A stretch of DNA of 29,286 nt from a virus: IMG/VR virus record IMGVR_UViG_3300017771_000072, positions 1 to 29,286 of that record; one strand, given 5' to 3'. The notes below the pieces were generated by a model that saw only the letters and a list, made by a program, of their open reading frames with translations, searched no databases and was not told the DNA's origin. The position numbers and the translations under genes are program-made. Shown here piece after piece: positions 6 to 29,286 of the stretch; within the stretch, counting starts at the first letter, position 1, and each line of letters starts with the position of its first letter.

Positions 6-33
6 TGCACACGAATGCACACAAACTGCACAC
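6..33 (+). repeat. Three TGCACAC direct repeats (left arm)
   Basis: TGCACAC occurs at 6-12, 16-22 and 27-33, that is every 10-11 bp, one helical turn, so all three sites face the same side of the DNA. This phasing is typical of a protein-binding array such as integrase arm-type sites. Confidence 0.7.
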
Positions 34-136: not shown

Positions 137-147
137 TTGCCAACGAG
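137..147 (+). other. Candidate attP core identical to tRNA-Gly anticodon region
   Basis: TTGCCAACGAG here equals positions 28984-28994 inside the tRNA-Gly(GCC) gene. The 7-bp TTGCCAA is the whole anticodon loop, the place where many tyrosine integrases that use tRNA genes exchange strands. The sequence that follows is only loosely T-arm-like and could not form a working tRNA 3' half. Confidence 0.5.
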
Positions 148-283
148 AGTCTCTCGGTTAAATTCTCAAGAGCTCGTGTGCAGTGATCTTTCCCAAAAAC
201 CCATCTGTTCTTGGTTAATATCATTAATTTATATTATAACGAGAAAATTCCGAGAAGCTCGTGGTTAATAAAAACACCTAAAA

Positions 284-301
284 TGCACACAGAATGCACA
301 C
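284..301 (+). repeat. Two TGCACAC direct repeats (right arm)
   Basis: TGCACAC at 284-290 and 295-301, 11 bp apart and in the same orientation as the left-arm copies. Together with the left cluster they bracket the tRNA-identical core. Confidence 0.7.
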
Positions 302-435: not shown

Positions 436-765
436 TCAACCTTTTCTTCTTCTTTCTGGAAATAAGTCACGCACCTTTCGATTGTTGTGCAGTCCTTTTC
501 TTTGAGCTGGGATAGTTCCACCCCAGACACCCTCTGAACAATAGTTTTTAATCGCATAAGCAAGACATTCAGCTCTGACTGGACATTGCAGACAGATGTC
601 GATTGCTTGTTTGTATTCCTTGTTTAAGGATCTACCTTTTAGATCTCTTTCCATAATGAATAGGGAAGTGTCACTTGATACACAAGCTCCTTGCTCTTTC
701 CATTGATATTCTGGATCTGAGATCAATTGTTTGACTTCAGACAATGTCAGATGATCATTTGTCAT
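436..765 (-). CDS. WhiB-family iron-sulfur transcription regulator
   Basis: A 109-residue protein with the full WhiB signature: C28, then C58-x2-C61-x5-C67 (the four ligands of a 4Fe-4S cluster) and GVWGG at 79-83, followed by a basic tail rich in Arg/Lys for DNA binding. WhiB proteins bind the primary sigma factor and redirect transcription; phage versions such as that of mycobacteriophage TM4 are known to interfere with host WhiB functions. I start at the ATG at 765; an in-frame TTG 60 bases upstream would add 20 residues unlike the family. There is no clear Shine-Dalgarno sequence, and a tRNA-like fold ends two bases before the ATG. It is the last gene of the leftward early operon. The family is nearly exclusive to actinobacteria and their phages, so it is the main host clue. 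Confidence 0.9.
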   Translation of the reverse strand: MTNDHLTLSEVKQLISDPEYQWKEQGACVSSDTSLFIMERDLKGRSLNKEYKQAIDICLQCPVRAECLAYAIKNYCSEGVWGGTIPAQRKGLHNNRKVRDLFPERRRKG

Positions 766-766
766 A

Positions 767-845
767 GTGGGCTGTCCAGAATCGAACTGGATCTTTTGTC
801 TGGACTTTCTGAGTTCTCGATTCAAAAGAAGACCATCTCAGCCCT
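767..845 (-). ncRNA. tRNA-like element just upstream of whiB
   Basis: On the minus strand a 6-bp acceptor-like stem (GGGCTG with CAGCCC) closes on a perfect 5-bp T-stem (TCCAG/CTGGA) with a canonical 7-nt T-loop TTCGATT, directly stacked as in tRNA. A 5-bp hairpin TTCTT/GAGAA with loop TTGAATC could mimic an anticodon arm, but there is no D-arm, the segment before the T-stem is 22 nt long, the end pair is A-A, and no CCA is encoded. The element is about 79 nt long and lies between the stop of the 875-1363 gene and the whiB ATG. It may be a tRNA relic or a tRNA-like processing or regulatory element; I do not call it a functional tRNA. Confidence 0.35.
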
Positions 846-874: not shown

Positions 875-1363
875 TTAAAATGGAGCATCTTGCTCCTTTA
901 TCTCGATATGGACTTTCGGCAATCTAAGGATTGCATCGAGAAGAGTGTTTAATTGTTCAAGATCACTGCTCTCAAGAGTTTTATGAGCTAGATCTCTTAA
1001 ATCACGATAATTTGTGATCTGAGCTTCTTTATTCACTGCATACTGCTTGACTTGAGCTTCTATCTTCCACATTGCATTTGCAGTCACGAGTTCATCTTCA
1101 TCAGTTGGAAGTTCTCCAATAACTTCTTGACCATTAAGCCATTCATTTGCATCTCTGTATCTTTGCAAATGGCTATTGTTCAGCCATCCAACATCTTGAG
1201 CTATCTCATTCAATAAGACATACGCATCAACAACTTTCTTCTTGAGCTGTTTTAATTGATCAACTTTCTTCTTGTGTAGATCATCAAGAGCTTCTTCTTC
1301 TGAATTAACCAAGATCGGATCTGGTTGAGCCATATAGTCTGAAACTTTTCCAAAGTAGCTCAT
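875..1363 (-). CDS. Early protein of unknown function, SSB-like C-terminal tail
   Basis: A 162-residue, mostly helical and charged protein, not recognised. Residues about 25-60 are Lys/Leu-rich (LKQLKKKVV) and likely form a helix or coiled coil. The last residues are IKEQDAPF, close to the acidic-PF tail of bacterial SSB; two other early proteins end similarly. The start at 1363 has a strong GGGAGGA ribosome site and its ATG overlaps the stop of the preceding gene (ATGA); a longer version starting at 1399 would ignore that site. Ninth gene of the leftward early operon. Confidence 0.75.
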   Translation of the reverse strand: MSYFGKVSDYMAQPDPILVNSEEEALDDLHKKKVDQLKQLKKKVVDAYVLLNEIAQDVGWLNNSHLQRYRDANEWLNGQEVIGELPTDEDELVTANAMWKIEAQVKQYAVNKEAQITNYRDLRDLAHKTLESSDLEQLNTLLDAILRLPKVHIEIKEQDAPF

Positions 1364-1737
1364 TTGATCCTCCCAGCTTGAAATTCTTCTCCAAACCACT
1401 GATCAAAGTTATCATCGATCATTGATTTTCTATTAAGTCCCAACAATCTGACATTTCTTTCATTGATCAGATCATCTGGCTCAATTGTTGTTCTACTGAA
1501 AGCAAGTCTTTGATCATTTGCTCTGACCATTGCTTTTCTATACATCACAAGAGCTTCGACAAGATTGTTCTCAATGTCTTGCAATTGTTTTAATTGATTT
1601 GCAGATTCGAAATATTGTTGCTTATTAAAATCCCATCGTTGATCTATTGATACAATCTCAACTTGTGGATAATGTGTATGAGCATACATCATTTCTTCTG
1701 TTTGTTTTATTGGGGCTGGTTGAATATCTTCTGCCAT
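1360..1737 (-). CDS. Early operon protein, unknown
   Basis: A 125-residue protein, not recognised. It has a proline-containing acidic N-terminus (to about residue 20), then a predicted long helical segment (about 45-75) rich in Gln, Asn and Leu, and a Phe/Trp-containing C-terminus (DQWFGEEF). No Cys pairs, signal peptide or membrane segment. AGGAGAAG stands at good spacing before the ATG at 1737. It overlaps the next gene by four bases (ATGA), so the two are probably translated together. Confidence 0.75.
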   Translation of the reverse strand: MAEDIQPAPIKQTEEMMYAHTHYPQVEIVSIDQRWDFNKQQYFESANQLKQLQDIENNLVEALVMYRKAMVRANDQRLAFSRTTIEPDDLINERNVRLLGLNRKSMIDDNFDQWFGEEFQAGRIK

Positions 1738-3877: not shown

Positions 3878-4260
3878 TATAAATCTCCCTCAGTCTGTTT
3901 TCTCTTCTTATCACGATCAAGTTTCAGAATGGTCTGACCAATTTTTTTCTCCCAATCTGGTAGGGACACAGTCCCATCAACTTCATCGATCCACGAACAA
4001 TCGTGCAATGCTTTATATATCTGATCACCATCTAAATCCAGAGCCATAATGCTTGGGAGATGGTCTTTTGTGACTTGTAGCTTTCCAGACATAAGGATTC
4101 CTTTTCCATCTGGGAAGTCAGTTATTGATATAGACCACAGTCTCACTAGAGCTCCTATGGTCTCATTAATTGTGATCCCAAGTGTTTTTGCTATGTGGAT
4201 CACTTCAAATTTGTTGAATATCCTTGAATCAAGTTGAAACCAAATATCTCTCTTCGCCAT
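3877..4260 (-). CDS. Replisome-organiser-like N-terminal domain protein
   Basis: A 127-residue protein. The opening (RDIWFQLDSRIF, then EVIHIAKTLGITINETIGAL, VRLWSISI) has the arrangement of phage replisome organiser / replication initiator N-terminal winged helices: W-x-x-L/I-D, a helix ending in LG, a second helix and the V-x-LW motif. Such proteins bind the phage origin and recruit a helicase loader. The protein ends in a Lys/Arg-rich tail, so any loader-binding domain must be in the next genes. Junctions on both sides are TAATG. Confidence 0.65.
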   Translation of the reverse strand: MAKRDIWFQLDSRIFNKFEVIHIAKTLGITINETIGALVRLWSISITDFPDGKGILMSGKLQVTKDHLPSIMALDLDGDQIYKALHDCSWIDEVDGTVSLPDWEKKIGQTILKLDRDKKRKQTEGDL

Positions 4261-4448
4261 TATTGATCACCTCTGATCAACGACATAAGAACAGATTTTT
4301 CAACCCTTAAAGGTTTAAGTTTGGTTGATGATCCAGTCGGTACAGCTTGAAGCTGTCCAGTATCAATCAACCGATAAGTTGTAGCTTTGCTCCAGCCAGT
4401 GAGTTCAACAATCTCCTTGACTGAGAGCAACAATTTGCTGTCTTGCAT
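4260..4448 (-). CDS. Excisionase/AlpA-like helix-turn-helix protein
   Basis: A 62-residue protein with a MerR/AlpA-type (HTH_17) winged helix: LLLSVKEIVELTGWSKATTY then RLIDTGQLQAV, and a closing VEKSVLMSLI helix. This is the typical form of phage excisionases and small directionality factors. It is the first gene of the leftward early operon, preceded by AGAGGAAT. It may serve as Xis together with the integrase at the right end, or as a regulator of the divergent promoter region beside it. Confidence 0.8.
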   Translation of the reverse strand: MQDSKLLLSVKEIVELTGWSKATTYRLIDTGQLQAVPTGSSTKLKPLRVEKSVLMSLIRGDQ

Positions 4449-10019: not shown

Positions 10020-10422
10020 AGTTCTCCCACCACTCTGGAAGTGAGGGGAGTTGGTTTGATGAAAGATGTGTTTGCACACCATCTGGATCAGCAACAGCAT
10101 CATTGAAATTGTTCAATGTGTTTGTGATCCAATTGTCCATCTCTGTCCTCGTTCCGAAATAATACAATCCATTGTGAGCCACAACATTAATTGTGACTAT
10201 CTGTTCACCGACTTCTTCTCCAGTTAGAACATTGATCCATTCTGGAACTGTCTCTTGAAATGAACATTCTTCAATTCTTATTGCTACCACTGGCAACTTT
10301 TGTTCACCTTGATAATCATCAGCTCTGTTATCGAGTATCGAATCAGAGTCATCAAATCCAAAATTGTGAAACCAATTTCTGTGATTCTCATCCTCTGGAT
10401 TCATATATGCTGTTAATGGCAT
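10006..10422 (-). CDS. Tail-region protein following the Gly-rich adhesin
   Basis: A 138-residue acidic protein, not recognised. It has Trp-rich ends (RNWFHNFGF near the start, PEWWENYEEK at the end). The ATG at 10422 follows GGAGGAT and shares one base with the stop of the adhesin gene (TAATG); upstream in-frame codons read through the Gly-rich gene in another frame and give an artefactual Trp-rich extension. Being coupled to a fibre gene, it may be a fibre-assembly chaperone or a tip protein. Confidence 0.7.
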   Translation of the reverse strand: MPLTAYMNPEDENHRNWFHNFGFDDSDSILDNRADDYQGEQKLPVVAIRIEECSFQETVPEWINVLTGEEVGEQIVTINVVAHNGLYYFGTRTEMDNWITNTLNNFNDAVADPDGVQTHLSSNQLPSLPEWWENYEEK

Positions 10423-11567
10423 TAATATCCTCCTCCAGTTAGTGTTCCTCCAGATCCAGCAGAAGATCCAGATCCTCGACCAGATCCAGTTGATCCACCA
10501 GCAGATGTGATTGATCCAGAGTTTGTGAAAGTACCATTGCAAGTTGCAATTAGTATTCCACCACCAGATCCACCTCCACCTCCACCAGAGAGTCTTCCAG
10601 TTCCACCAGTTTGTCCACCTCTTCCAGCAGAAGAAAGAGATCCACCAGATGCAACTGTGAGATTTCCAGAAGCATAGATCACAAGTGATCCACCAGTTCC
10701 AGTGTGACCACCATATCCAGCTCTCGAATCAGATGGATTATAAGAGTTATTTGATCCACCAGATCCTCCACCATTTCCAGTTCCACCAGTTCCTCCAGCA
10801 TCACCAGTCCAGTATGACCATTGAGTGTGTCCAGATGCTCCACCATTTCCACCTTGTCCAGCGTATGAAGTGGCGTTTCCACCACCTCCACCACCTCCTG
10901 AATAGTGGTTATAATATGCAACACCTCCAGATCCTCCTCCTCCAGATCCTCCAGAAGCTAAGTGTCCAACAGCACCAGATCTTGATCCTCCATAAGATCC
11001 AGATCCACCTTGACCACCACCTCCAACAGTTAGAGCTGAAGCAGTAGATGATCCATTTGTATGAGCTGAAGCTGATCCAGTCATTGATATGACAGTTGAT
11101 CCAGCAACTTCATTTGCTGATGAGTTCACAGCTAAGTTGCTAAGACCACCAGATTTATATCTTCCCTTGTTATAAGTTGAGATTGATCCATTGACAGTGA
11201 GATCACCATCAACAAATATATAAAATCCTTGAGTTGTGCCAGATGTTGTCAGAGTGAATCCAGCAGAGATTGTCAGATCACCATTGATCCTAAGAAGAGC
11301 AAGTTTATCTCCAGAAGTTCCAATATTTCCAGCTCCGAATGTGTTGTTGCCATCATAGACAATAATGTTTGCATCGTATGTTGTGCCACCTACATTGATC
11401 CCATTTGACTCATAACCATTTCCAGTTGTGATGTCATAATTTGTATTGAATTGAGAAACTGGGATCTTCTTTAGATGCCAAAGCAGATCAGCTGAGACAT
11501 TTGTCCCCTCATATTGTGCTTCGGCTAGTCCACCAATTAATCCAATTTTTGCAAAACCTATCGGCAT
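10422..11567 (-). CDS. Glycine-rich tail adhesin / receptor-binding protein
   Basis: A 381-residue protein. Residues 1-160 form an N-terminal beta-type domain; residues about 170-381 are very rich in Gly, Ser, Thr and Asn, with runs such as GGGGQGGSGSYGGSRSG and repeated GGxGG blocks. Long Gly-rich segments of this type form polyglycine-II sandwiches in phage adhesins (T4-like gp38 is the known model) and present variable receptor-contact loops. Variable aromatic islands (YYNHY, HTQWSYW) between Gly runs would be the contact loops. Position at the end of the tail module fits. No signal peptide. Confidence 0.75.
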   Translation of the reverse strand: MPIGFAKIGLIGGLAEAQYEGTNVSADLLWHLKKIPVSQFNTNYDITTGNGYESNGINVGGTTYDANIIVYDGNNTFGAGNIGTSGDKLALLRINGDLTISAGFTLTTSGTTQGFYIFVDGDLTVNGSISTYNKGRYKSGGLSNLAVNSSANEVAGSTVISMTGSASAHTNGSSTASALTVGGGGQGGSGSYGGSRSGAVGHLASGGSGGGGSGGVAYYNHYSGGGGGGGNATSYAGQGGNGGASGHTQWSYWTGDAGGTGGTGNGGGSGGSNNSYNPSDSRAGYGGHTGTGGSLVIYASGNLTVASGGSLSSAGRGGQTGGTGRLSGGGGGGSGGGILIATCNGTFTNSGSITSAGGSTGSGRGSGSSAGSGGTLTGGGY

Positions 11568-28247: not shown

Positions 28248-28545
28248 AAGATATTTATTTCTGAGATAGAAATTGGATTATTGGTATAACTATATCAGCT
28301 AAATGGAACTCAATTAAAAATTTGCCCATATTTCTTGATTATTTTAATTCTCACTACTGATTGAATATTTCTGCTTTTATTTAAAGCAAATAAATATTAT
28401 CTTATGTTTTCTTATCTTATCTTTCTTCTCTTATCTTATGTCAGAATTTCCGACTGCATTCCGATGGAAATCCAACTGCTTTCCAAAGAAAGTCGGTGGA
28501 AAGTCGTAGGAAATTGTCTCACATTGTGATTAAATTAAAAGAACA
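28248..28545. promoter_or_regulatory. Divergent control region at the start of the leftward late genes
   Basis: 298 bp without a gene, between leftward and rightward genes. It contains TTATCTTATG twice (28397-28406 and 28431-28440) with further TTATC units between; TTTCC/GGAAA pairs at 28447-28451 with 28466-28470 and 28480-28484 with 28498-28502, and a further GGAAA at 28509-28513, the last two both preceded by AGTCG or GTCG. No GATC occurs. TATAGT and TATACC boxes near the leftward gene are possible -10 elements, but without a good -35. Confidence 0.55.
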
Positions 28546-28915: not shown

Positions 28916-28943
28916 TTGAACAGCTCTGAGTATTTGTTATAAT
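28916..28943 (+). promoter_or_regulatory. Promoter of tRNA-Gly
   Basis: TTGAAC (28916-28921), 16-bp spacer, TATAAT (28938-28943), about 10 bases before the tRNA 5' end. The perfect -10 box and position show that the tRNA is transcribed on its own. Confidence 0.7.
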
Positions 28944-28953
28944 TTTAGTTATT

Positions 28954-29028
28954 GCAGTAGTAGTTCAGTGGTAGAACGCCTCGTTGCCAACGAGGAAGTC
29001 GGGAGTTCGAATCTCCTCTACTGCTCCA
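28954..29028 (+). tRNA. tRNA-Gly (anticodon GCC), CCA encoded
   Basis: A full cloverleaf: acceptor GCAGTAG/CTACTGC (7 bp), D-arm GTTC/GAAC, anticodon stem CCTCG/CGAGG with loop TTGCCAA (GCC), T-arm GGGAG/CTCCT-type with loop TTCGAAT, discriminator T and genomic CCA at 29026-29028. The integrase stop codon begins at the very next base on the other strand. The anticodon loop region equals the candidate attP core at 137-147. Confidence 0.95.
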
Positions 29029-29286
29029 CTAATCTTGTTCTGGTTTATAACCCTTATCAAATGAATCAGCCATTCTCTTCTTGAGATCCATATCTTCTTT
29101 GATATAGTACTCACGAGTCACACGATCATTCTTATGTCCCAAGTGATTTGCAATATCAGTAGAACTCCAACCAAGACCAGCAAGAACTGTTGCTGATGTG
29201 TGTCTTGTATATTTAGGAGACTTGAGTGGTCTTTCAATACCAACCAACTCTTGAATCCGAATAAAGTTCTTTCTGAAATAATCTAA
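29029..29286 (-). CDS. Tyrosine integrase, C-terminal part (cut by window edge)
   Basis: The open frame runs from the right edge (no start inside the window) to TAG at 29029-29031; 85 codons are visible. It has the catalytic-domain end of tyrosine recombinases: SPKYTRHTSATVL (the Arg of box II; the usual His three residues before it is Lys here), DIANHLGHKN (L-G-H) and, nine residues later, the nucleophile Tyr in TREYY. The rest, normally 250-350 residues more, lies outside. It inserts the phage at a tRNA-like site. The gene converges on the tRNA with no gap. Confidence 0.9.
   Translation of the reverse strand, partial: LDYFRKNFIRIQELVGIERPLKSPKYTRHTSATVLAGLGWSSTDIANHLGHKNDRVTREYYIKEDMDLKKRMADSFDKGYKPEQD

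Follow-up and report, generated by a model that had tools for sequence, protein, structure and literature searches.

When a temperate phage carries both a tRNA gene and an attP core that matches the same tRNA, does it restore the host gene it enters or break that gene and bring a replacement? The window analysed here (the whole stretch of DNA, a linear viral record of 29,286 bases) raises this question, with a complete tRNA-Gly(GCC) gene abutting an integrase gene at its right end and a candidate attP core near its left end. The features that bear on the answer are listed in Table 1.

Table 1. Features of the tRNA, integrase and attP region of the window and of nearby phage genes.
Feature	Positions	Strand	Basis
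attP arm-type repeats, integrase side: TGCACAC x3 (at 6, 16 and 27)	6..33	+	Motif positions
attP core TTGCCAACGAG, 11 nt	137..147	+	Identical to the loop and 3' stem of the anticodon arm in tRNA-Gly(GCC)
Position of the tRNA 3' half of L005; non-tRNA here	148..182	+	Alignment to L005; chimera test
attP arm-type repeats, far side: TGCACAC x2 (at 284 and 295)	284..301	+	Motif positions
WhiB-like regulator	436..825	-	PF02467, E 3.7e-16
Small HTH_17 protein, candidate excisionase/RDF (weak)	4260..4448	-	PF12728; phrog_66, E 4e-4
Promoter-like TTGAAC-16-TATAAT, upstream of the tRNA	28916..28943	+	Consensus scan
Complete tRNA-Gly(GCC) with encoded CCA; proposed replacement tRNA	28954..29028	+	ARAGORN; Rfam RF00005
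Tyrosine integrase, C-terminal part (end of catalytic domain, with the Tyr)	29029..29286	-	Pfam PF00589; L002, L003

The two ends of the window are continuous in close relatives. Two near-identical IMG/VR contigs (L002 and L003; identity above 99.5%) join position 29,286 to position 1 through the same 1,080 bp, and the whole genome is therefore about 30.4 kb and permuted or circular. The bridge supplies the 5' part of the integrase gene, which lies beyond the right edge, and completes a 430-residue tyrosine integrase (as read from L003: PF00589, Phage_integrase, E 1e-14, with a SAM-like Phage_int_SAM_5 domain). A preliminary description of the sequence had asked whether bases beyond the right edge lead back to position 1, and had proposed that the tRNA, the integrase, a missing part and attP would form a self-contained cassette; both hold, the cassette being contiguous over about 1.7 kb through L002 and L003. 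On a rival reading the tRNA belongs to the host and marks the edge (attL or attR) of an integrated element, the window being a prophage boundary, and a tRNA beside an integrase is indeed typical of a prophage end. This reading is exceedingly improbable, and is refuted by L002 and L003, which traverse the tRNA, integrase, attP and then whiB with phage genes on either side, and by L004, which continues from the tRNA into phage structural genes; since L002 and L003 bridge the ends of the window, the tRNA-Gly is phage DNA and not a host flank.

With positions 1–25,000 of the window as query, the phage collection contains no near DNA match. In the intergenic stretch at 28,395–28,520, GATAAG-like (CTTATC) repeats precede iterated words of the type TTCC/GGAA; similar stretches occupy the same place in L025, L051 and L006, and a role in replication or regulation is possible. 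The tail gene region includes a gene (10,422–11,567, minus strand) coding for a 381-residue glycine/serine-rich protein with many imperfect repeats.

The tRNA-Gly(GCC) is the sole tRNA gene that ARAGORN and Rfam find in the window; it scores 72 bits against RF00005 (cut-off 29; E 4e-14), and its CCA is encoded at 29,026–29,028. The integrase stop codon starts at the base right after the tRNA, with the integrase on the minus strand and the two genes convergent, so the earlier report of a complete, CCA-encoding tRNA gene adjoining the integrase is borne out. The promoter that it was also credited with is less secure: the element upstream has 10 of 12 consensus matches and an extended -10 and ends 11 nt before the tRNA, but the number of promoter-like matches in the window is not above that in shuffled sequences, and we treat it as a candidate with a fair consensus match.

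On the two sides of the attP core lie five TGCACAC repeats in all, with a spacing of 10–11 bp, whereas the rest of the window, counting both strands, has four; a core between spaced repeats of this kind is the layout of arm-type integrase sites. A shared word of at least 11 nt arose in 6 of 2,000 shuffles of the surrounding 247 bp. The carried tRNA and the core agree in anticodon, Gly(GCC) in each. The canonical restoring feature, a complete tRNA 3' half in attP, is absent from the window, which between flanks aligned to L005 (a related phage contig discussed below) has AGAGTCTCTCGGTTAAATTCTC... in its place. Joining the 5' half of the phage tRNA to the window attP in silico yields no tRNA by ARAGORN, whereas the same 5' half joined to the L005 attP as a control is called as tRNA-Gly; the DNA after the core thus cannot rebuild a 3' half, as had been claimed. 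Integration could nonetheless be of the restoring type, the usual strategy and the one seen in L005, L053, L093, L094 and L026, with a working 3' half elsewhere in the true attP and the carried tRNA redundant. We consider this very unlikely, as the full interval from the integrase to whiB in the window, L002 and L003 has no second tRNA 3' half, just the 11-nt core between arm repeats.

Phage L005 displays the reverse state of the window. Its integrase is 58% identical to that of the window (about 77–90% for the shared DNA), and its attP includes a complete tRNA-Gly 3' half with CCA (CTTGCCAACGAGAAGGTCGAGGGTTCGAATCCCTTCTACCGCTCCA) at the same place as the window core, while an Rfam tRNA search finds no tRNA gene beside the integrase or anywhere in its 11-kb contig. 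A related phage, L006 (TerL 80%), has a clearly different tRNA-Gly(GCC) at 1,363–1,437 (minus strand), about 0.7 kb from its integrase, possibly a third acquisition; its contig ends before attP.

The same two states occur in a second integrase clade, which was reached through terminase relatives and whose integrase is 23% identical to that of the first. In L049, L050, L051 and L052 a tRNA-Val(GAC) gene follows the integrase stop codon by about 20 nt on the integrase strand, and the attP, where visible, is a bare Val core (TCGACAAGGT) followed by non-tRNA sequence, so that Val is paired with Val. Two further contigs (L022 and L025), both of which begin inside the integrase gene, also carry tRNA-Val(GAC). 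In L053, L093 and L094 the attP includes the entire Val 3' half (TCGACAAGGTAGATGTCACAAGTTCAAATCTTGTATCTCCCACCA); these contigs lack any tRNA gene, and their integrase stop codon is followed directly by the same downstream sequence. The L053 and L051 integrases are 54% identical. On each side of the core, the arm repeats of this clade have a spacing of 11 bp. A third integrase is found in L026, which likewise has a Val 3' half but not a complete tRNA. The chimera test with ARAGORN was informative for Gly only; for Val, the control chimera itself failed to be called correctly, and the argument rests on alignment.

Across 36 related contigs searched for tRNAs with Rfam, this reciprocal arrangement has no exception where attP is readable, the contigs being fragments, such that a tRNA could lie elsewhere in L005, L053, L093 and L094. 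This comparison draws on few phages: two different genotypes with a bare core and, from the same two clades, four restoring contigs, together with L026. The tRNA is convergent with the integrase in the Gly clade and co-directional with it in the Val clade, and these opposite orientations, with the different isotypes, argue for separate acquisition of the Gly and Val tRNAs. The tRNA-Val genes of L049–L052 end in CGCCCCA-CAAG and do not encode CCA, whereas the window tRNA-Gly does, and the Val type would therefore depend on the host CCA-adding enzyme.

These pairings also bear on a simpler account, in which the tRNA-Gly would be ordinary cargo that serves translation or anti-defence, with a core match that is coincidental or a product of past recombination. 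Such genes are common, and the TTGCCAACGAG anticodon arm recurs in the tRNA-Gly(GCC) of many unrelated IMG/VR phages. However, the window has no other tRNA, this one sits beside the integrase, its presence mirrors the absence of the 3' half from attP, and in the second clade the carried tRNA is Val precisely in those phages that have a Val core in attP; we regard cargo as improbable.

Our preferred reading, very probably correct, is that the phage practises tRNA-dependent lysogeny, breaking a host tRNA-Gly(GCC) gene and supplying its own copy. The preliminary description had proposed just this, breaking one tRNA and bringing another, and its proposal is supported because reciprocal states in relatives, spanning two integrase clades and two isotypes, are hard to explain otherwise. 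The tyrosine integrase would recombine the core with the anticodon region of the host gene, a tRNA-Gly(GCC) with TCTCGTTGCCAACGAGA being the proposed target; the host 5' half would be joined to phage DNA that is unable to complete the tRNA, and the host 3' half would be moved to the integrase end of the prophage. The host gene would thereby be destroyed and not rebuilt, and the phage tRNA-Gly(GCC) beside the integrase would replace the lost tRNA and keep the lysogen alive. We infer that the phage integrates at the host tRNA-Gly, that this gene is essential there and that the prophage expresses the phage tRNA.

More broadly, we lean towards the view that in one marine, probably actinobacterial lineage the modules of tRNA, integrase and attP have switched at least twice independently, once with Gly and once with Val, between restoring and replacing states, and that gaining a cognate tRNA next to the integrase is a recurrent modular route from one integration strategy to the other. 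The flanks and spacing around the bare core are conserved in the window and L051 despite the absence of the 3' half, and a search of these bare attPs finds no significant remnants of it (p 0.99 for the window and 0.55 for L051); the loss may reflect decay in place after tRNA capture or replacement by recombination. The arm-type repeats keep their position and approximately 11-bp spacing in the window, L005, L051 and L053, with sequences that all differ (TGCACAC, TTTTGCCCAA, AGAGCGACCA and GAGCACCC, respectively), and this dissimilarity suggests that the arm-binding specificity of the integrase changes fast.

The WhiB gene, the GC content of 35–41% and the Val attachment sites of the relatives point to a marine actinobacterium as the likely host. 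A search for the 3' half of the Gly attP, allowing up to three mismatches, found none in 396 genomes of the phylum of Mobilicoccus, 398 of a class with a similar tRNA-Val and 120 of one order. In the same genome samples the sole matches to the Val attP 3' half (three mismatches, with a degenerate pattern) all fall in one class, and this is suggestive of the class of the host, though not proof. The genomes sampled at class level are unlikely hosts, as their tRNA-Gly 5' halves joined to the L005 attP are not called as tRNA. An apparent orphan Gly 3' half in genome G666 (L079) was dropped, a run of N covering the rest of the tRNA and the genes of the contig being unrelated. Scanning the genome contigs for the integrase recovers only a distant Mobilicoccus relative, and no Actinomarina genome was recognised among the searchable genomes, nor any host attB found.

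The strategy is not new. It was named tRNA-dependent lysogeny by Guerrero-Bustamante and Hatfull (mBio 2024; PMC10865867), whose deletion and integrating-plasmid experiments showed lysogeny of Mycobacterium phages to require the tRNA that the phage carries. The isotypes of the dependent type in their table of examples are Lys-TTT, Ile2-CAT and Leu-CAA, and Gly-GCC and Val-GAC are absent from that table. This recently proven strategy was seen in cultured phages of Mycobacterium and Gordonia; the phages described here extend it to the uncultured marine realm, with two added isotypes, and a bare core with a cognate tRNA beside the integrase is a sequence signature by which such phages may be sought in metagenomes.

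Several known systems are similar in part. Phage group G13 of Ca. Actinomarina, from Mizuno et al. (2013; PMC3861242), is likened here by description: it shares WhiB, low GC and an integrase, and its 43-bp tRNA-Val att is of the restoring type as in L053; the sections of that paper drawn on here describe no tRNA-carrying variant. PMC10865867 and PMC11476347 cite the Lactobacillus johnsonii prophage Lj965 and some prophages of Sinorhizobium as elements that break a tRNA on integration and carry the cognate one; these too are likened by description and belong to other hosts and phages. Canonical restoring systems (mycobacteriophage Omega at attB-11, and L005 and L053) share the target class, attP geometry and integrase families, but the window attP is without a 3' half and nothing is restored.

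The closest parallel is mycobacteriophage Fionnbharth (K4), set against its canonical relative Boilgate (K8) in PMC10865867: as in the window, there is a tyrosine integrase, no rebuilt tRNA and a carried cognate tRNA. Fionnbharth is proven experimentally, whereas the phages here are uncultured, marine and known from sequence. Core lengths in the systems of PMC10865867 are 8–17 bp, compared with 11 for the core as read here from the phage DNA. The tRNA gene abuts the integrase in the window, overlaps gene 37 in Fionnbharth and is downstream of the integrase in Gaia (PMC10865867). The Fionnbharth/Boilgate and Gaia/Omega pairs of that study match the pairs found here, in each of which a tRNA-carrying phage has a close restoring relative without the tRNA, and such paired relatives bear on the question left open by the 2024 authors of how restoring and replacing systems interconvert.
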